A stretch of DNA of 7,633 nt, from the NCBI GenBank assembly GCA_018830405.1, contig JAHJSF010000089.1:1-7633 (forward strand), given 5' to 3'. The DNA is from Nitrospinota bacterium (GTDB lineage: Bacteria > Nitrospinota > Nitrospinia > UBA9942 > JAHJSF01). The translations under genes and the position numbers were made by a program. Positions 1-7,633 of the stretch are shown one piece after another; the first letter of the stretch is position 1, and every line of letters starts with the position of its first letter. The notes below the pieces were generated by a model. That model worked only from the letters and a program-made list of their open reading frames with translations. It was not told the origin of the DNA and ran no database searches.

Positions 1-439
1 GAGGATGGAGGTTATAAATATTGGCGGGGTAGAGATAATAAACGATGCCTACAATGCCAATCCGGCCTCGATGGATATGGCCATAGCTACCCTAAATGGT
101 ATAAATTCCAGGGGGAGAAAGGTCTTGGTTGCGGGGGATATGCTCGAACTGGGAAGTGAGTCAATTAATGCCCACATGGATTTGGGGCGGAAAGTGGCCT
201 CATCCATGGGGATAGACCGCTTTTGTACCTATGGAAAGCTGGCGGCCATAGCGGCTGAATCGGCCATAGACAGCGGAATGGAGGCCGATTTGGTTATTTC
301 TTCCAATAGTCATAAAGATATAGTAGCCTTTCTCGATGGTTACCTTAGAGAGGGGGATATTCTCTTGGTCAAGGGTTCGAGGGGGAATAGGTTAGAGGAA
401 GTTATACGGGGTCTATCGGATATAAGAGGAGATAAATAA
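1..439 (+). CDS. murF: MurF, UDP-MurNAc-tripeptide--D-Ala-D-Ala ligase (C-terminal part, 5' truncated)
   Basis: Cytoplasmic ATP-dependent ligase that joins D-Ala-D-Ala to UDP-MurNAc-tripeptide, the last soluble step in making the pentapeptide precursor. Only about the last 145 residues are present, roughly a third of a typical MurF of about 450. They correspond to the C-terminal Mur ligase domain. The reading frame is open from base 2 (an AGG Arg codon), so the ATG at 5 is internal, not the start. Family signatures are NDAYNANPASM close to the left edge, VAGDMLELG about 40 residues in, and LVKGSRGNRLEEV near the end, matching the DDSYNAN, VVGDMAELG and LVKGSR blocks of E. coli MurF. The ATP-binding GKT loop and N-terminal domain lie upstream of the window. 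The stop TAA shares its last A with the mraY start, so translation is probably coupled. No internal damage is seen. Confidence 0.95.
   Translation, partial: RMEVINIGGVEIINDAYNANPASMDMAIATLNGINSRGRKVLVAGDMLELGSESINAHMDLGRKVASSMGIDRFCTYGKLAAIAAESAIDSGMEADLVISSNSHKDIVAFLDGYLREGDILLVKGSRGNRLEEVIRGLSDIRGDK
427..431 (+). promoter_or_regulatory. Shine-Dalgarno site for mraY
   Basis: AGGAG lies 7 bases before the mraY ATG at 439, inside the last codons of murF. It supports ATG 439 as the mraY start and re-initiation by ribosomes finishing murF. Confidence 0.75.
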
Positions 440-1521
440 TGCTCTATAAGGTACTCTATTCATTCAAGGATCAATTCTCCTTCCTCAATGTATTTCAATA
501 TATATCGTTTCGGACAACCTATGCTATTATTACCGCCCTCCTGCTGAGCCTTATCGCCTCCCCCTACATTATCAGGCGGCTCAAAAAATATCAGATTGGG
601 GAGGAGATAAGCCAATACGGACCGGAATCACATCATGTCAAAAAGGGGACCCCCACCATGGGGGGGGTATTGATAATATTTTCCCTTATCATTCCCACAA
701 TATTGTGGGCCGATATAACCTCGCCAGCCGTTATCGGCATGATCCTCTCCACACTCCTTTTCGGGGCAATAGGTCTGGTGGATGACTACCTGAAACTGAA
801 GAAGAGGGGGGAGGGTATGTTGGCCGGGGAGAAATTTCTCCTACAGGTGGGGGCGGCCATGGTCGTTATCCTCTATCTTTATATTTATACCGGCTACAGC
901 AGCTTTATTACCACCCTCGGGGTTCCTTTCTTCAAGAAGATTAAGATCGATTTAGGGGGGTGGTATTTTGTGGTGGCCATATTCATCATAGTCGGAACCT
1001 CAAATGCGGTCAATCTGACAGATGGTCTTGATGGGCTGGTTATCGGCCCGGTAATCATAGCCCTGGCCGCCTACATGTTTATCTCCTATGTATCGGGGCA
1101 TTACGGTTTTGCCAATTATCTCAATATTCAGTATGTCAAAGGGGCGGGGGAACTGGCCATATTCTGCGGGGCGGCCATTGGGGCCAGTTTCGGCTTCCTC
1201 TGGTATAACACCTATCCGGCTGAACTCTTTATGGGGAATGTCGGTTCGACTGCCCTGGGAGGGATGCTGGGGACTATTGCCATTATTACCAAACATGAGC
1301 TTCTCCTTATTATTATAGGGGGGATATTTGTTATAGAGGCCCTATCGGTAATCATCCAGGTGGCCTCATTTAAGCTGCGAGGAAAACGGGTCTTCAGGAT
1401 GGCTCCCCTTCATCACCATTTTGAGAAGTTGGGGTGGCCGGAGCCCAAGGTTATTGTCCGTTTTTGGATTGCGGCCATACTCCTTGCCCTTTTGAGCCTA
1501 AGTACCCTGAAACTCAGATAG
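439..1521 (+). CDS. mraY: MraY, phospho-N-acetylmuramoyl-pentapeptide transferase, with Asn at the third catalytic Asp position
   Basis: Integral membrane enzyme that transfers phospho-MurNAc-pentapeptide from UDP to undecaprenyl phosphate, giving lipid I. The 360 residues equal the length of E. coli MraY. About ten hydrophobic segments are visible (near residues 25-45, 75-93, 96-114, 133-152, 174-190, 197-220, 240-260, 270-285, 288-311 and 337-357). Family blocks are GTPTMGG (about 70-76), LVDDYLKLKKR with the Asp pair D115/D116, NAVNLTDGLDGL (189-200), FLWYNTYPAELFMGNVGS (253-270), and MAPLHHHFEKLGWPEP with H325-H327. The oddity is AAT (Asn) at residue 267, where E. coli D267 and Aquifex D265 sit; those Asp residues are reported as essential or nearly so. 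Leu after GS is also Thr here. The rest looks fully functional, so this is either a real lineage variant or a base error. The start has a good AGGAG site. Confidence 0.97.
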   Translation: MLYKVLYSFKDQFSFLNVFQYISFRTTYAIITALLLSLIASPYIIRRLKKYQIGEEISQYGPESHHVKKGTPTMGGVLIIFSLIIPTILWADITSPAVIGMILSTLLFGAIGLVDDYLKLKKRGEGMLAGEKFLLQVGAAMVVILYLYIYTGYSSFITTLGVPFFKKIKIDLGGWYFVVAIFIIVGTSNAVNLTDGLDGLVIGPVIIALAAYMFISYVSGHYGFANYLNIQYVKGAGELAIFCGAAIGASFGFLWYNTYPAELFMGNVGSTALGGMLGTIAIITKHELLLIIIGGIFVIEALSVIIQVASFKLRGKRVFRMAPLHHHFEKLGWPEPKVIVRFWIAAILLALLSLSTLKLR

Positions 1522-1569: not shown

Positions 1570-2949
1570 ATGTTATTGGACAATCTTAAAGATAAAAGGG
1601 TTATCGTTGTCGGGTTCGGCCGGAGCGGTGTCTCGGCGGCCAATCTTCTCTACAGCCGCGGGGCAGTTGTTTCTGTTACCGATAGCCGTGGGGAGGGAGA
1701 CCTCGGCTCAGGTCTCTCTTTGCTTAAGGGGAACCCCAAACTATTCCTTGGGGGACATGATGGGATAGATATATCTCTATTTAATCTGGCCGTGGTCAGC
1801 CCGGGGGTTCCTTGGGATTCTGAGTTCTTGGTTTCCCTTAGAGATGCCGGGATTAAGGTTATAAGTGAGCTTGAACTTGCCTCATACTACACAGATAAAC
1901 CGATCATTGCCATTACGGGGACAAACGGGAAGACAACCACCTCAACCTTGGTCAGGGATATGTTGGTTGCCGGCGGGAAGCGGGTCTTTCTCGGCGGGAA
2001 TATAGGTGTCCCCCTCAGCGAATATATTATAGGGGGAGAAGAAGTGGATTATCTAGTCTGCGAGGTTAGTACCTTTCAGATGGAGGGGGCAGATCTATTC
2101 CACCCCTATATATCGACCATACTTAATATCACCGAAGACCATCTCGACCGTCATGCCGATATGGATGAATATATTACCCTTAAAAAGAGGGTATATCTGA
2201 ATCAGGGGGAGGGGGATTTTTTTCTCCTCAATCTCGATGACCCGATTGTGTCTTCGTTAGACACGCCCCCCTTTGTGACCAAACATTCATTCAGCCGAAC
2301 AACTACTACTATAGCCAACGGGGCTTTTCAGTCTGGGGATGAGCTCTTCCTGAGTGACGGCGGTGTCCCCCATACATTATGCAATATAGAAAAACTTAAG
2401 ATTAAGGGGGTTCATAATGTAGAGAATGTTCTAGCGGCCGCAGCTATAGCCTATATCTGCGGTGTTTCCGTAGAAGATATAAGAAGGGCTGCCGTCTCCT
2501 TTAAGGGGATAAAGAACAGGATGGAGTTTGTTGATGCTATCGACGGCATTACCTTTATAAACGATTCCAAGGGGACCAATGTCGGGGCGGCCGTCCGCTC
2601 CATCGAGAGTATAGATACACCTCTAATATTGATTGCCGGCGGTAAGGATAAGGGGGGGGACTATACCCCTCTCAAGGAGGCGATAGAGAGGAAGGTTAAG
2701 GAGGTAGTCCTTATCGGAGAGGCTAGTGACCGTATCTCCTCATTCCTGCCGAAAACAGTTTCCCAGACAATGGCATCTTCTCTGCAGGAGGCTGTAGAGA
2801 TAGGCTACAAGAGGGGAAAAGAGGGGGACACCGTTCTTCTCTCACCGGCCTGTTCCAGTTTTGATATGTTTAAAAGTTATGAGGATAGGGGAAACCACTT
2901 TAGAGAGGCCGTTAAGGCCATTAGAGAGGGGAGGGGGAATAATGAGTAG
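1570..2949 (+). CDS. murD: MurD, UDP-MurNAc-L-Ala--D-glutamate ligase
   Basis: Cytoplasmic ATP-dependent Mur ligase that adds D-Glu to UDP-MurNAc-L-Ala. It has 459 residues, against 438 in E. coli. The N-terminal UDP-binding Rossmann-type domain shows VIVVGFGRSGVSAANLL near residues 11-27 and VVSPGVP further on. The central ATPase domain has GTNGKTTT at 117-124 (P-loop Lys K121) and NITEDHLDRH. K205 in YITLKKRVY aligns with the Lys that is carbamylated in E. coli MurD (K198); this alignment was made by eye. The C-terminal domain has NDSKGTN at 331-337, GGKDKGGDY, and SPACSSFDMFKSYEDRGNHF. An in-frame TAG at 1558-1560 leaves ATG 1570 as the first possible start; its ribosome site is weak (AGAGA at 1559-1563). 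It follows mraY after 48 bases and overlaps ftsW by 8. It appears intact. Confidence 0.97.
   Translation: MLLDNLKDKRVIVVGFGRSGVSAANLLYSRGAVVSVTDSRGEGDLGSGLSLLKGNPKLFLGGHDGIDISLFNLAVVSPGVPWDSEFLVSLRDAGIKVISELELASYYTDKPIIAITGTNGKTTTSTLVRDMLVAGGKRVFLGGNIGVPLSEYIIGGEEVDYLVCEVSTFQMEGADLFHPYISTILNITEDHLDRHADMDEYITLKKRVYLNQGEGDFFLLNLDDPIVSSLDTPPFVTKHSFSRTTTTIANGAFQSGDELFLSDGGVPHTLCNIEKLKIKGVHNVENVLAAAAIAYICGVSVEDIRRAAVSFKGIKNRMEFVDAIDGITFINDSKGTNVGAAVRSIESIDTPLILIAGGKDKGGDYTPLKEAIERKVKEVVLIGEASDRISSFLPKTVSQTMASSLQEAVEIGYKRGKEGDTVLLSPACSSFDMFKSYEDRGNHFREAVKAIREGRGNNE
2928..2937 (+). promoter_or_regulatory. Shine-Dalgarno site deciding the ftsW start
   Basis: A GGGGAGGGGG-like purine run inside the murD 3' end contains GGAGG at 2930-2934, 7 bases before ATG 2942. 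It favours 2942 over the in-frame ATG at 2861, which would extend FtsW by 27 non-conserved, polar residues deep inside murD. Confidence 0.75.
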
Positions 2950-4033
2950 AAGGGGGTGTGATCATTATCTTCTCGGCGCCGCAGTCACGCTTGTGTCGAT
3001 AGGGGTAGTCATGATCTACAGCACCACCTCGGCCATCTCCCTCAAAACATATGGAGACTCCTACTACATATTTAAGAAACATCTTTTATGGGTGGGGGTA
3101 GGGGGTATAGTCATGTTCCTGGCGAGGTATATAGATTACCATAGGATAAGAGTTTTTACCTACCCGCTACTCTTTATCTCATTTTTCCTTCTTCTCATAG
3201 TTATCATTCCCTCTGTAGGGACGAAGGTTGGGGGAGCCAGAAGGTGGCTTCGATTCGGCGGCTTCTCCTTCCAACCGGGGGAGTTGGCCAAGGTTTCCAT
3301 TATAATATTTCTAGCCCATTCCCTGACCAAGAGGAGGGATGAACTGAAAGAGTTTGTTCAAGGTTTTCTTCCAAATATATTTGTGGTTGGTCTCTGTTGT
3401 CTACTTATATTGGTGGAACCAGATCTCGGAACGGCCTTCCTTATCTTCGTTGTATCTATGTTCGTAATGTATATGGGAGGGGTGAGCATTCTTCATCTGA
3501 TAGGTCTGGTCGGGGTAATCTCTCCTATGGCCTATTTTGCCGTCTTTAATGTAGAATACCGCCGCCGTAGGATAATGGCCTTTGTTGACCCGTGGAAGGA
3601 CCCTCTTGGAAGCGGTTTTCAGATTATTCAATCACTTATTTCTTTTGGTCGAGGGCATATTGCCGGGGTGGGGATAGGAGAGGGGAAACAGAAACTATTC
3701 TTCCTGCCTGAGGCCCATACCGATTTTATATTCTCGGTTATCGGCGAGGAGTTGGGGTTGATAGGGTCGGTTCTTACCCTATCCATCTTCTTTTTGCTTG
3801 TTGCCAGGGGGATAAGGATATCTCTTAAGGCCCCTGACCTCTATGGCAAGTATCTTGCCTTTGGCATAACGGTTATGCTGGCCTTGCAGATTGTACTTAA
3901 TATTTGCGTGACTATTGGTCTATTCCCTCCCAAGGGGATACCACTCCCCCTTATAAGTGTCGGGGGGAGCTCTCTGGTTGTAGCTATGGGGATGATAGGT
4001 ATACTTCTTAATATATCGGAGCAGGTAAGATGA
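2942..4033 (+). CDS. ftsW: FtsW, SEDS-family septal peptidoglycan glycosyltransferase
   Basis: Polytopic membrane protein that polymerises lipid II into glycan strands at the division septum, working with the class B penicillin-binding protein FtsI. It has 363 residues, somewhat shorter than E. coli FtsW (414). Hydrophobic segments fill most of the length, starting with HYLLGAAVTLVSIGVVMIY at about residues 8-26. SEDS signatures include GGARRWLRFG and FQPGELAK in the first half, EPDLGTA, YRRRRIMAFVDPW, LPEAHTDFIFSVIGEELG with the putative catalytic Asp D261, and GIPLPLISVGGSSLV near the C terminus. LPEAHTDFIF plus the position between murD and murG favours FtsW over RodA. Small departures from the common form are FQPGE (often FQPSE) and ISVGGSS (often ISYGGSS). 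The start at 2942 is chosen from the GGAGG site and the 8-base overlap with murD. The stop overlaps the murG start. Confidence 0.95.
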   Translation: MSRRGCDHYLLGAAVTLVSIGVVMIYSTTSAISLKTYGDSYYIFKKHLLWVGVGGIVMFLARYIDYHRIRVFTYPLLFISFFLLLIVIIPSVGTKVGGARRWLRFGGFSFQPGELAKVSIIIFLAHSLTKRRDELKEFVQGFLPNIFVVGLCCLLILVEPDLGTAFLIFVVSMFVMYMGGVSILHLIGLVGVISPMAYFAVFNVEYRRRRIMAFVDPWKDPLGSGFQIIQSLISFGRGHIAGVGIGEGKQKLFFLPEAHTDFIFSVIGEELGLIGSVLTLSIFFLLVARGIRISLKAPDLYGKYLAFGITVMLALQIVLNICVTIGLFPPKGIPLPLISVGGSSLVVAMGMIGILLNISEQVR

Positions 4034-5106
4034 GGGTTGTTATTGCGGGAGGGGGGACAGGGGGGCACCTCTTCCCGGGTATTGCCATGGCCCATCAGTT
4101 TAAGGACGATGACCCTTCAAGTCAGGTCCTATTTATAGGAACCAAGAAGGGGATTGAGAGTAGGGCTGTTCCCAAGGAAGGTTTTCCCATAGCCTACATC
4201 GATATTTCGGGTATCAAGGGGAAGTCTCCGGTGAAGGTTATGGTTGCGCTCATCAAGTTGCCCTTGTCGGTTGTTCAATCTATACAGCATCTTATTCGTT
4301 TTCGTCCCGATATAGTGATAGGGGTCGGGGGATATTCTTCCGGGCCGGTTTGTCTATCTGCCTTTCTTCTCGGGATTCCGGTTGTTATACATGAACAGAA
4401 TATGTCTCCCGGCCTGACCACATCGATACTTGGTAAGATTGCCAAGGTGATTCTGGTCTCCTTTTCAGGGACGGCCAAATCTTTTCCCGGGCGGGATGTC
4501 CGCTATGTCGGGAACCCGATAAGGAGAGATATCAGGTTAAAAGAGGGGGTAAATGGCCGAGAGAAGAATGGTTCTTTTACCATATTTATTTTTGGGGGGA
4601 GCCAGGGGGCCCACACCCTTAATAGGGGGGTAGTGGATGGTTTTCCCTACCTTGAAGAGATAAAGGATAGATTACACTTTATACACCAGACGGGAGAGAA
4701 AGACTTTGTATACATTAAGTCTGCCTACGAGAAGAATGGTTTTTCGGGGGAGGTATCTCCCTTTATAGACGATATGGCCGATGCCTATAGCAGGGCCGAC
4801 CTGGTTATAAGCCGATCGGGAGGGAGTGCCTTGGCCGAGATTATGGCTATGGGGAAACCATCCATACTGATTCCCTTCCCCTATGCTACAGAAAACCACC
4901 AATATTATAATGCCTTAGAGGTGGCCAATGGTGGGGGGGCAAAAATAATATTAGATGCTGATGTGTCGGGGGAGTTTATGGCCTATACGATCAAGGAATT
5001 TATGGCCGACAGAAAGGGTCTTTTGGAGATGGGCTTGGCCAGTAAGCGCCTCGGTAAACCGCTGGCGGCCGAGAAGATAGTCAATATATGTAAAGGTTTA
5101 GTATAA
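4030..5106 (+). CDS. murG: MurG, lipid I N-acetylglucosaminyltransferase (forms lipid II)
   Basis: Peripheral membrane GT-B fold (family GT28) enzyme on the inner face of the cytoplasmic membrane. It transfers GlcNAc from UDP-GlcNAc to lipid I, giving lipid II. Its 358 residues are close to the 355 of E. coli. The N-terminal acceptor domain has AGGGTGGHLFPG (residues 6-17, with H13), GVGGYSSGP and HEQN at 121-124. The C-terminal donor domain has FGGSQGAHTLN from F188, HQTGEKD, SRSGGSALAE at 261-270 (E270 in the nucleotide-sugar loop), and PFPYATENHQYYNA. All expected loops are present. The start shares the ATGA overlap with the ftsW stop, and GGAG at 4018-4021 lies 8 bases upstream. It is followed by the longest non-coding gap of the window, so it may close a transcriptional sub-unit. 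Confidence 0.97.
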   Translation: MRVVIAGGGTGGHLFPGIAMAHQFKDDDPSSQVLFIGTKKGIESRAVPKEGFPIAYIDISGIKGKSPVKVMVALIKLPLSVVQSIQHLIRFRPDIVIGVGGYSSGPVCLSAFLLGIPVVIHEQNMSPGLTTSILGKIAKVILVSFSGTAKSFPGRDVRYVGNPIRRDIRLKEGVNGREKNGSFTIFIFGGSQGAHTLNRGVVDGFPYLEEIKDRLHFIHQTGEKDFVYIKSAYEKNGFSGEVSPFIDDMADAYSRADLVISRSGGSALAEIMAMGKPSILIPFPYATENHQYYNALEVANGGGAKIILDADVSGEFMAYTIKEFMADRKGLLEMGLASKRLGKPLAAEKIVNICKGLV

Positions 5107-5223
5107 AAAAGGTACCAGCCTTCAAGAGCCTTTGTTTTTTGGTCCCTTGTTGATATTATCTGACTGTTGTATAGCCCATGAAGGTATTTGATAACGATTT
5201 TGGAACGATAGGAAGAGCTTAAA
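5107..5223 (+). promoter_or_regulatory. murG-murC intergenic gap with an imperfect inverted repeat
   Basis: This 117-base gap is unusual in a cluster whose other junctions overlap or are short. Just after the murG stop, AAGGTACCA (5109-5117) can pair with TGGTCCCTT (5140-5148), 8 pairs with one mismatch. Alternatively AAAGG (5108-5112) can pair with CCTTT (5129-5133), followed after one G by six T (5135-5140), which resembles a weak intrinsic terminator. The two pairings share GG at 5111-5112 and exclude each other. AGGAAG at 5210-5215 is a good ribosome site for murC. No convincing promoter is seen. Termination or attenuation is inferred only from these short repeats. Confidence 0.3.
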
Positions 5224-6585
5224 ATGCACGACAAAAAGAGATCCATTCATTTTATAGGGATAGGCGGTTCAGGTATGAGCGGGATTGCTGAACTCCTTAT
5301 AAAACTTGAACATAATGTCAGTGGTTCGGATATGGCCAGAACCAAGGTGACCGAAAGATTAGCCAATCTGGGGGCTAAAATATATATAGGTCATGCGGCC
5401 GAAAATGTTTCCGGGGCAGATGTGGTGGTTGTCTCCTCGGCCGTCAGCAGGGACAACCCTGAAGTTATATCGGCCAAAAGGCAGGCAATTCCGGTTATAA
5501 TGCGGGCCGAGATGCTGGCTGAACTGATGCGTCTAAAGTATGGCATTGCAGTTGGGGGGAGTCATGGCAAGACGACTACGACCTCTCTGATTGGTTCAGT
5601 ATTGCTGGCCGGAAAGCTTGACCCGACAGTGGTGATAGGGGGGAGACTTAACAATAGCGGGACGGGGGCCAGGCTCGGGGAGGGGGAATATCTGGTGGCC
5701 GAGGCGGATGAGAGTGACGGGTCTTTCCTAAAGCTTATGCCGACCATAGCGGTGGTAACCAATATAGATTATGAACATATCGACCATTATGGGAGCCGAG
5801 AGGTTCTGGTAAGCACGTTTTTAGATTTTATAAATAAGATTCCCTTCTACGGGACGGCCATCGTCTGTATAGACAATGATGACCTCCGCAATCTAATGGT
5901 CAACTATGAAAAGCGTTATCTCTCCTACGGTTTTTCTGAGGATGCTGATATAAGGGCCGAAGACATTACTATCAAAGGGGAATCAAAGTCTTTTGATATC
6001 CTATTCAAAGGGGAGAATTTGGGGAGAGTCGAGCTTCACCTGCCCGGAAGGCATAATGTATTAAATGCCTTGGCAGCCGTCGGGGTTGGCCTTGAGCTTG
6101 GTGTTCCGTTTGAGGCGATTCAGCGGGGACTTGAGTCTTTTGCCGGGGTTGAGCGGCGGTTCCAGTTCAAGGGGGAGCGTGACGGGGTAACCATTATTGA
6201 TGATTATGGGCATCACCCTACGGAGATTGCCGCTACGCTTAGCGCGGCTAAAGAGGTTTGGCCCGAGAGGAGGATTATAGCTGTCTTTCAGCCACACCGC
6301 TATAGCCGCACCAGAGACCTTAAGGGGATGTTCACGGATACATTTCTTAATTCAGATATCCTTTTTATTACCCCCATATATTCGGCCGGCGAAAAACCGA
6401 TAGAGGGGATAGATGCCTCTACAATTGTCAAAGAGGCCCAAGAGGGGGGAGTGGATAATGTAACTTTAGTGAAAGACCTTGATGATGTTGTGACCCGACT
6501 AAGGGAGATAACCAAACCGGGGGATGTAGTCATTACCATGGGGGCGGGAGACGTTGTGAAGGTTGCAGGGAAATATCTTGAGTAA
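5224..6585 (+). CDS. murC: MurC, UDP-MurNAc--L-alanine ligase
   Basis: Cytoplasmic ATP-dependent Mur ligase that adds L-Ala to UDP-MurNAc, the first peptide step. It has 453 residues, within the family range (E. coli 491). The N-terminal domain opens with HFIGIGGSGMSGIAELL and SGSDMA, the UDP-binding region. The ATPase core has GSHGKTTTT at 112-120 (K116), EADESDGSF from E160, and NIDYEHIDHYGS from N180. The C-terminal part has LPGRHNVLNALAA, GVERRFQFKG, DDYGHHPTEI (D326/D327, H330/H331), FQPHRYSRT and YSAGEKPIEGI. The HGKTTTT loop and the DDYGHHPTE block separate it from MurD, MurE and MurF. An in-frame TAG at 5209-5211 makes ATG 5224 the first possible start, backed by AGGAAG 8 bases upstream. 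Its 3' end overlaps murB. Confidence 0.97.
   Translation: MHDKKRSIHFIGIGGSGMSGIAELLIKLEHNVSGSDMARTKVTERLANLGAKIYIGHAAENVSGADVVVVSSAVSRDNPEVISAKRQAIPVIMRAEMLAELMRLKYGIAVGGSHGKTTTTSLIGSVLLAGKLDPTVVIGGRLNNSGTGARLGEGEYLVAEADESDGSFLKLMPTIAVVTNIDYEHIDHYGSREVLVSTFLDFINKIPFYGTAIVCIDNDDLRNLMVNYEKRYLSYGFSEDADIRAEDITIKGESKSFDILFKGENLGRVELHLPGRHNVLNALAAVGVGLELGVPFEAIQRGLESFAGVERRFQFKGERDGVTIIDDYGHHPTEIAATLSAAKEVWPERRIIAVFQPHRYSRTRDLKGMFTDTFLNSDILFITPIYSAGEKPIEGIDASTIVKEAQEGGVDNVTLVKDLDDVVTRLREITKPGDVVITMGAGDVVKVAGKYLE
6567..6571 (+). promoter_or_regulatory. Shine-Dalgarno site deciding the murB start
   Basis: AGGGA within the murC 3' end lies 6 bases before TTG 6578. It favours that TTG over the in-frame TTG at 6563, whose only purine run (GAAGG) touches the start codon. 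Confidence 0.55.
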
Positions 6586-7480
6586 AGATTTGGAAGGTAT
6601 CTTTAGGGATATTAAAGGGAAGAAACGGGTTGATTATCCCTTGAGCAAACTCTCCTCTTTCCGTGTGGGGGGGAAGGGGGATATGGTGGTTTTTCCCAAC
6701 GACGTGGATGACCTTCTTCTCCTACGTAAGATAGCCACTGAGAATGCTATTACGCTGACACTCATAGGGTTTGGCAGTAATCTCCTTATCCGTGACGGTG
6801 GGATTAGAGGTCTGACGGTTATACTCAGAAAGGGCTTCAAAAATATAGATGTTGTCGGGGAAAAGATTGCGGCCGGTGCAGGGATAGGACTTCAGGAATT
6901 GGCCAAAGAGGCGGCCAAACATTCTTTGAGCGGCCTGGAATTTGCCGCCGGAATACCAGGGACACTTGGCGGGGCAATTGCCATGAATGCCGGAACCGAT
7001 AAGGGGGAGATTAAGGATATTTTGAGCCGCCTTACCCTCTTGGATGAGAGGGGTGAACTTTTAGAGATTAAGGGTTCTGATATCAGTTTTGGCTATCGAA
7101 GGGCCAATCTGCCTAAAGATGGGATAGTCGTTGAGGCGGAGTTGGAACTGACCAAGGGGAACATAGAAGAGATTGAAAGGTCTATAGGGTCGGAGATAGA
7201 GAGGCGGCGTAACAAAGGGGAATATAAGGGTTTTAATGCCGGGTCGATATTTAAGAATCCAGCCGGGGATTTTGCCGGACGGCTTATAGAAGAAGCGGGA
7301 CTTAAAGGATATAGGGTCGGCGGGGCAGTTGTCTCCGGTGACCATGCCAATTTTATTCTTAATGAAGGGGAGGCTACCGCCAAGGATATATTGGAGCTTA
7401 TTTCGCTCATTAAAGACAGGGTATATAAGAATAGCGGTCTTCTCCTTGAGGAGGAGATACGGATAATAGGGGAGGAGTAA
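6578..7480 (+). CDS. murB: MurB, UDP-N-acetylenolpyruvoylglucosamine reductase
   Basis: Cytoplasmic FAD enzyme that uses NADPH to reduce UDP-GlcNAc-enolpyruvate to UDP-MurNAc, the substrate of MurC. With TTG 6578 it has 300 residues, typical of the shorter type II MurB. FAD-binding blocks are LSSFRVGGKGD near the N terminus, IGFGSNLLIRDGG, and GLEFAAGIPGTLGGAIAMNAG. The substrate region has FGYRRANLP with Y173/R174. NAGSIFKNP carries S223, the likely proton donor by analogy with E. coli S229. LIEEAGLKGY, VSGDHANFILNEG and LLLEEEIRIIG close the protein, with a Glu before IRIIG expected in the active site. Conserved QP-x-x-x-P residues that often precede the AGS block are replaced by GEYKGF. 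No ATG lies near the N terminus; TTG 6563 (15 bases upstream) and TTG 6590 are the alternatives. It overlaps murC by 8 bases. Confidence 0.95.
   Translation: MSKDLEGIFRDIKGKKRVDYPLSKLSSFRVGGKGDMVVFPNDVDDLLLLRKIATENAITLTLIGFGSNLLIRDGGIRGLTVILRKGFKNIDVVGEKIAAGAGIGLQELAKEAAKHSLSGLEFAAGIPGTLGGAIAMNAGTDKGEIKDILSRLTLLDERGELLEIKGSDISFGYRRANLPKDGIVVEAELELTKGNIEEIERSIGSEIERRRNKGEYKGFNAGSIFKNPAGDFAGRLIEEAGLKGYRVGGAVVSGDHANFILNEGEATAKDILELISLIKDRVYKNSGLLLEEEIRIIGEE
7471..7475 (+). promoter_or_regulatory. Shine-Dalgarno site deciding the ddl start
   Basis: GGAGG at the murB 3' end sits 7 bases before TTG 7483, an ideal distance. The in-frame ATG at 7504 has only AAGG two bases upstream, which is too close. 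Confidence 0.65.
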
Positions 7481-7482
7481 GA

Positions 7483-7633
7483 TTGGATAAAAACATTAAG
7501 GATATGAAGATAGGGGTCCTTATGGGGGGGATGTCGTCGGAGCGGGACATATCTCTCATAACCGGCGGGGCTGTTTTCTCGGTCCTTAAAGAAAATGGAT
7601 ACAATGCAGCCTCGATAGATGTGGGGCGAGACC
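7483..7633 (+). CDS. ddl: Ddl, D-alanine--D-alanine ligase (N-terminal part, 3' truncated)
   Basis: Ddl is a cytoplasmic ATP-grasp ligase that makes the D-Ala-D-Ala dipeptide used by MurF. Only the first 50 codons are in the window, against about 300 in the family. After a short lead (DKNIKD) comes MKIGVLMGGMSSERDISL, then TGGAVFSVLKENGYNAASIDVGRD. This is the usual Ddl opening, where the GG.SSEREISL loop contributes a Glu that binds the first D-Ala. The ATP-grasp domain lies beyond the right edge. TTG 7483 is preferred because of the strong GGAGG site; ATG 7504 is the alternative and would remove seven residues. It starts two bases after the murB stop, so it belongs to the same operon. The reading frame stays open to the window end. 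Confidence 0.9.
   Translation, partial: MDKNIKDMKIGVLMGGMSSERDISLITGGAVFSVLKENGYNAASIDVGRD

Follow-up and report, generated by a model that had tools for sequence, protein, structure and literature searches.

MraY is an essential enzyme of the cell wall. In Aquifex aeolicus MraY, D265 coordinates Mg2+ (PMC4790310; PMC6606608), and this residue, which corresponds to D267 of the E. coli enzyme, has been described as conserved and essential (PMC6606608). Mutation of E. coli D267 caused a complete loss of activity, leading to the proposal that D267 is a covalent nucleophile, whereas the small residual activity of the B. subtilis D231N mutant was taken as an argument against such a nucleophile (PMC4902027). 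In P. aeruginosa, the effects of a hyperactive MraY were lost or much weaker with D267A, which was largely non-functional (PMC10914600). In human DPAGT1 (GPT), Asn185 and Asp252 hold the Mg2+, and the D252N mutation raised activity 5-fold, which the authors explained by a more electropositive metal (PMC6218659). Two inhibitors, tunicamycin and mureidomycin, contact the equivalent Asp in ordinary MraY. Our search of open papers found no report of a natural Asn at MraY position 267, nothing on an Asn variant in connection with MraY and Nitrospina, and none naming a D267N mutant. The inactive E. coli D267 mutant described by Lloyd in 2004 is said to have been D267N.

The window analyzed here, a stretch of 7,633 nucleotides that makes up a whole 7.6-kb contig (G000:C64), carries murF, mraY, murD, ftsW, murG, murC, murB and ddl in intact order, all on the + strand and each with a match to an NCBIfam model (Table 1). 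mraY lies in its expected position in the dcw/mur cluster, with murF on one side and murD on the other, and the core of the murF-to-ddl gene order is kept in Nitrospinota. A gap of 117 bases (5107–5223) separates murG from murC in an otherwise tight cluster, and no promoter-like or terminator-like site was found within it. The MraY of the window passed the TIGR00445 equivalog test, scoring 398.7 bits against a cut-off of 192.05 bits over positions 1–321 of the 321 in the model. An identity as a WecA/TagO-type PNPT was rejected, because the protein reached only 33.9 bits against the TIGR02380 cut-off of 326 bits and has HHH rather than HRRH.

The protein has MraY signature 1 and the cytoplasmic motifs D115-D116, N192/D195/D198 and HHH, and the alignments agreed with the initial annotation that D115, D116, N189, D195, D198 and HHH are all present. 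At the place of the third catalytic Asp, D267 of FMGD in the E. coli enzyme, the protein has Asn (AELFMGNVGSTALGG). N267 was aligned opposite D267 of the solved MraY 8g01 (phmmer alignment, E 1e-108) and opposite the Asp of FMGDVGS in A. aeolicus MraY 4j72. Together with the open reading frame, these alignments confirmed the AAT codon reported at residue 267 of an intact, canonical mraY. The span originally given for the motif, 1231–1254, corresponds to M265–A272, whereas FMGNVGS itself (F264–S270) occupies the slightly different positions listed in Table 1.

Table 1. Features of the window and of a second PNPT gene in the same genome
Feature	Position	Strand	Remarks
murF, 3′ part	2–439	+	TIGR01143, 111 bits over 136 aa
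mraY	439–1521	+	360 aa; TIGR00445, 398.7 bits; Pfam PF00953; MraY_sig1; matches to 8g01/4j72
D115 D116	781–786	+	intact; same in 34/34 Asn-MraYs
N189-A-V-N192-L-T-D195-G-L-D198	1003–1032	+	intact
FMGNVGS motif, F264–S270	1228–1248	+	FMGD[VT]GS in ordinary MraY
Codon 267, AAT (Asn)	1237–1239	+	aligned to E. coli D267, A. aeolicus D265, B. subtilis D231
Thr271	1249–1251	+	nearly always Leu beside Asp267
HHH motif, residues 325–327	1411–1419	+	intact
murD	1570–2949	+	TIGR01087, 411 bits
ftsW	2942–4033	+	TIGR02614, 398 bits
murG	4030–5106	+	TIGR01133, 306 bits
murC	5224–6585	+	TIGR01082, 553 bits
murB	6563–7480	+	TTG start (scanned from 6584); NF010480, 344 bits
ddl, 5′ part	7483–7633	+	TTG start; cut by contig end; NF002378, 47 bits over 45 aa
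WecA-like second PNPT of the same genome	L002 1168–1959 (G000:C105)		cut by contig end

We searched 100 relatives and aligned their mraY loci. The six other genomes of the window's order (family f2; 7/7 with the window's own genome) all have Asn267, as do all three genomes of f5, a family of the same class, so that the residue proved to be common among close relatives, a check that the initial annotation had proposed. The MraYs of the order and of f5 are about 61–67% identical to that of the window, and Asn shared at this distance indicates that it was inherited and did not arise as a single-base assembly error. By contrast, families f3, f4 and f6–f9 of the class have Asp267 wherever it could be read.

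The distribution of Asn267 over a wider range of bacteria was analyzed with a context pattern, W[FY]NxxPAxx(x)FMG[DN], in 387 genomes; an earlier FMGN DNA pattern was too loose, as most of its matches outside MraY were unrelated short frames and two were a real PNPT paralogue. The context pattern matched in 291 genomes, 16 of which had Asn. Within the window's phylum, 72 of the 77 genomes matched and 10 had Asn, whereas outside it Asn was found in 6 of 219 matches (G107, G123, G140, G289, G138 and G279). All 21 pattern-matching genomes among the 24 of Nitrospinota have Asn, G138 among them; the phylum of G279 was also taken to be Nitrospinota. Two public records that were counted outside the window's phylum, JACQBU010000080.1 (Nitrospinota) and JAJDBK010000046.1 (Nitrospinaceae), have Asn too. 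The other four of the six genomes are isolated Asn lineages: G107 and G123 are the sole sampled genomes of their phyla, and one phylum-mate of G289 carries Asp. In G140 (L183), a 1.0-Mb genome that is 94% complete, Asn267 stands where the other readable members of its phylum (seven other pattern-matching genomes) all have Asp, and its Asn looks like a separate gain. Wide occurrence of FMGN, which the initial annotation had said would make the residue ordinary, held only in part: the motif runs through the whole of one phylum and turns up here and there in others, but few bacteria as a whole have it. Because Asn267 also occurs in 33 other MraYs, the third Asp is not a defining residue of the family in nature. 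There is a natural clade of bacteria with Asn-MraYs, and every readable genome of Nitrospinota, the phylum to which the marine nitrite oxidiser Nitrospina belongs, is part of it.

In a maximum-likelihood tree of 78 rows, from which column 267 was left out, the Asn rows other than G140 fell within one clade, inside which Asp rows were nested. Family f5 (Asn) joined the Asp families f3, f4 and f6–f9 at 98/91, and G162 (Asp) also lay inside the Asn clade. The tree requires four state changes, which would fit one old gain of Asn followed by reversals to Asp, with G140 having gained Asn separately. When three more rows were included, the placement of f5 became less firm and four changes were still needed. 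A tree in which the 33 Asn rows were forced into one clade was not formally rejected (AU p 0.056), so that reversal is favoured, not proven. By taxonomy, Asn and Asp co-occur in the window's class and in the phyla to which G289 and G140 belong, so that the residue has probably been exchanged more than once. The Asp families inside the Asn clade suggest exchange in both directions, and Asn267 is an old state that appears to be exchangeable with Asp.

Each of the 18 Asn genomes analyzed, including G138 (scored 100% complete), has one protein above the TIGR00445 cut-off, and their other PNPT paralogues score far below it; in G003, mraY is split over two contigs. Searches with PF00953 and TIGR00445 found no second mraY above the cut-off, and the one other PF00953 protein of the window's own genome, which is 87% complete, is WecA-like, with FMGD and HRRH. 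The suggestion that a second MraY-like gene supplies the activity was therefore left without support. D115, D116, N189, N192, D195 and D198 are invariant in the 34 Asn-MraYs, in which Asn is encoded by 17 AAT and 16 AAC codons. In seven close pairs, dN was 0.010–0.075 whereas dS was 0.09–1.54 (dN/dS about 0.04–0.16). A single copy, invariant catalytic residues and a low dN relative to dS are what a working enzyme under constraint would show.

Two genomes of the order encode a WecA/TagO-like PNPT paralogue, L216 (G005:C138) and L219 (G006:C31), with Asn in its metal motif (KIFMGNTGSLFLG). Like the window MraY, it carries this Asn at the same place in the motif (KIFMGNTGS); unlike MraY, it belongs to a different subfamily, with 32% identity to MraY and a score far below the mraY cut-off. 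The Asp/Asn exchange is thus found in a second subfamily as well.

Combined, these results support the initial proposal of a variant metal site used by the lineage, as the Asn is inherited, fixed in several lineages, present in a single-copy gene and under purifying selection, and the rest of the active site is intact. The mraY product is very probably the organism's only MraY, and a functional one, with Asn267 in place of the Mg2+-ligand Asp. An error of sequencing or assembly that turned GAT into AAT would need just a single-base difference, yet the same Asn in nine relatives of the class, from the order and f5, and in all 21 readable Nitrospinota genomes refutes it and makes its probability negligible. 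It could instead be argued that the MraY of the window is dead or regulatory and that lipid I is made by another enzyme, considering that E. coli and P. aeruginosa MraYs mutated at D267 have little or no activity and that a second gene could be missing from an incomplete genome assembly. This is very unlikely given the single MraY in 18 of 18 Asn genomes, the low scores of the other paralogues, the purifying selection and the intact dcw cluster. Spontaneous deamidation of Asn occurs in proteins, and conversion of Asn267 to Asp after translation would restore an ordinary site. However, deamidation is fast mainly at Asn-Gly pairs, whereas Val, Thr or Ile follows the Asn in 34 of 34 sequences, and it would be strange for Asn to be conserved for so long with Asp just one base change away, which renders deamidation highly improbable. 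Judged from these sequences, Asn267 is neither an error nor a sign of decay.

A further explanation, which refines the preferred reading of a functional Asn-MraY, is that compensating changes elsewhere, such as Thr or Val at residue 271 or other second-shell substitutions, rebuild the metal site and alone permit Asn. In E. coli and B. subtilis, substitutions at the equivalent Asp remove all or most of the activity (PMC4902027), and the dead E. coli D267 mutant suggests that Asn might need a special background. Moreover, 177 of 182 Asp-MraYs have Leu at residue 271, against only nine of the 34 Asn-MraYs, where Thr (12) and Val (9) are also found. On the other hand, those nine Asn-MraYs retain the ordinary Leu, and Val271 occurs beside Asp267 in family f3, so that Thr271, which had been put forward as a possible compensator, is not supported as a rule. 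By phylogeny there are three independent Asn/Asp pairs, in which residue 271 changes together with 267 in 0.6 of 3, and with only three contrasts no correlation between residues 271 and 267 can be claimed. A scan of the whole alignment for covarying columns, which has no power with three independent contrasts, found none but 267 that separates the Asn and Asp sets, the next-best columns lying mostly in the variable 149–157 loop. We consider obligatory compensation unlikely, and on the aligned set residue 271 is relaxed, not required, in Asn-MraYs.

How a functional Asn-MraY would handle its metal can be outlined. The side-chain carbonyl oxygen of Asn267 would bind Mg2+ alongside N192 and the substrate pyrophosphate, and the chemistry would proceed in one step, without an Asp267 nucleophile. 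N192 is presumably the counterpart of DPAGT1 Asn185, as judged by motif matching, and the metal site of the window MraY would then have two Asn ligands and no carboxylate. Because Asn is unable to form the proposed acyl-phosphate, the two-step Asp267 mechanism would be inapplicable to Asn-MraYs if these enzymes work, as is implied by their conservation. We infer that the enzyme is active, how it binds the metal and that its chemistry is one-step from sequence comparison, according to which Asp267 appears replaceable in nature and is probably a metal ligand rather than a chemical attacker. The inactive or largely non-functional mutants of E. coli and P. aeruginosa indicate that not every background allows Asp267 to be replaced freely and that some context may be needed. 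More tentatively, Asn-MraYs could form an ancient, phylum-wide class with a carboxylate-free metal site (N192 and N267) that is fully active without a covalent intermediate at Asp267 and has a different affinity for Mg2+, a different rate and different binding of Mg-site nucleoside inhibitors (tunicamycin, mureidomycin), a possibility to which we give somewhat less than even weight. Asn-MraYs are a natural experiment on one-step versus two-step mechanisms and on the role of the metal ligand, and they bear on whether Mg-site inhibitors depend on Asp267. They also caution that a residue check alone is a poor ground for calling such mraY genes dead.

The window encodes a real, inherited and lineage-wide variant of a known enzyme, which is most likely active. 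Like the MraYs of E. coli, A. aeolicus and B. subtilis, it has the whole length, the operon place, D115/D116, NAVNLTDGLDG and HHH; unlike them, it has Asn for D267, the one of the three Asp residues that coordinates Mg2+. It resembles human DPAGT1 in belonging to the PNPT superfamily, in which DPAGT1 D252 is the equivalent Mg2+ ligand and the D252N mutant is active, but DPAGT1 is a eukaryotic enzyme with another sugar substrate, and its Asn252 was engineered, whereas Asn267 of the window MraY is natural and fixed.
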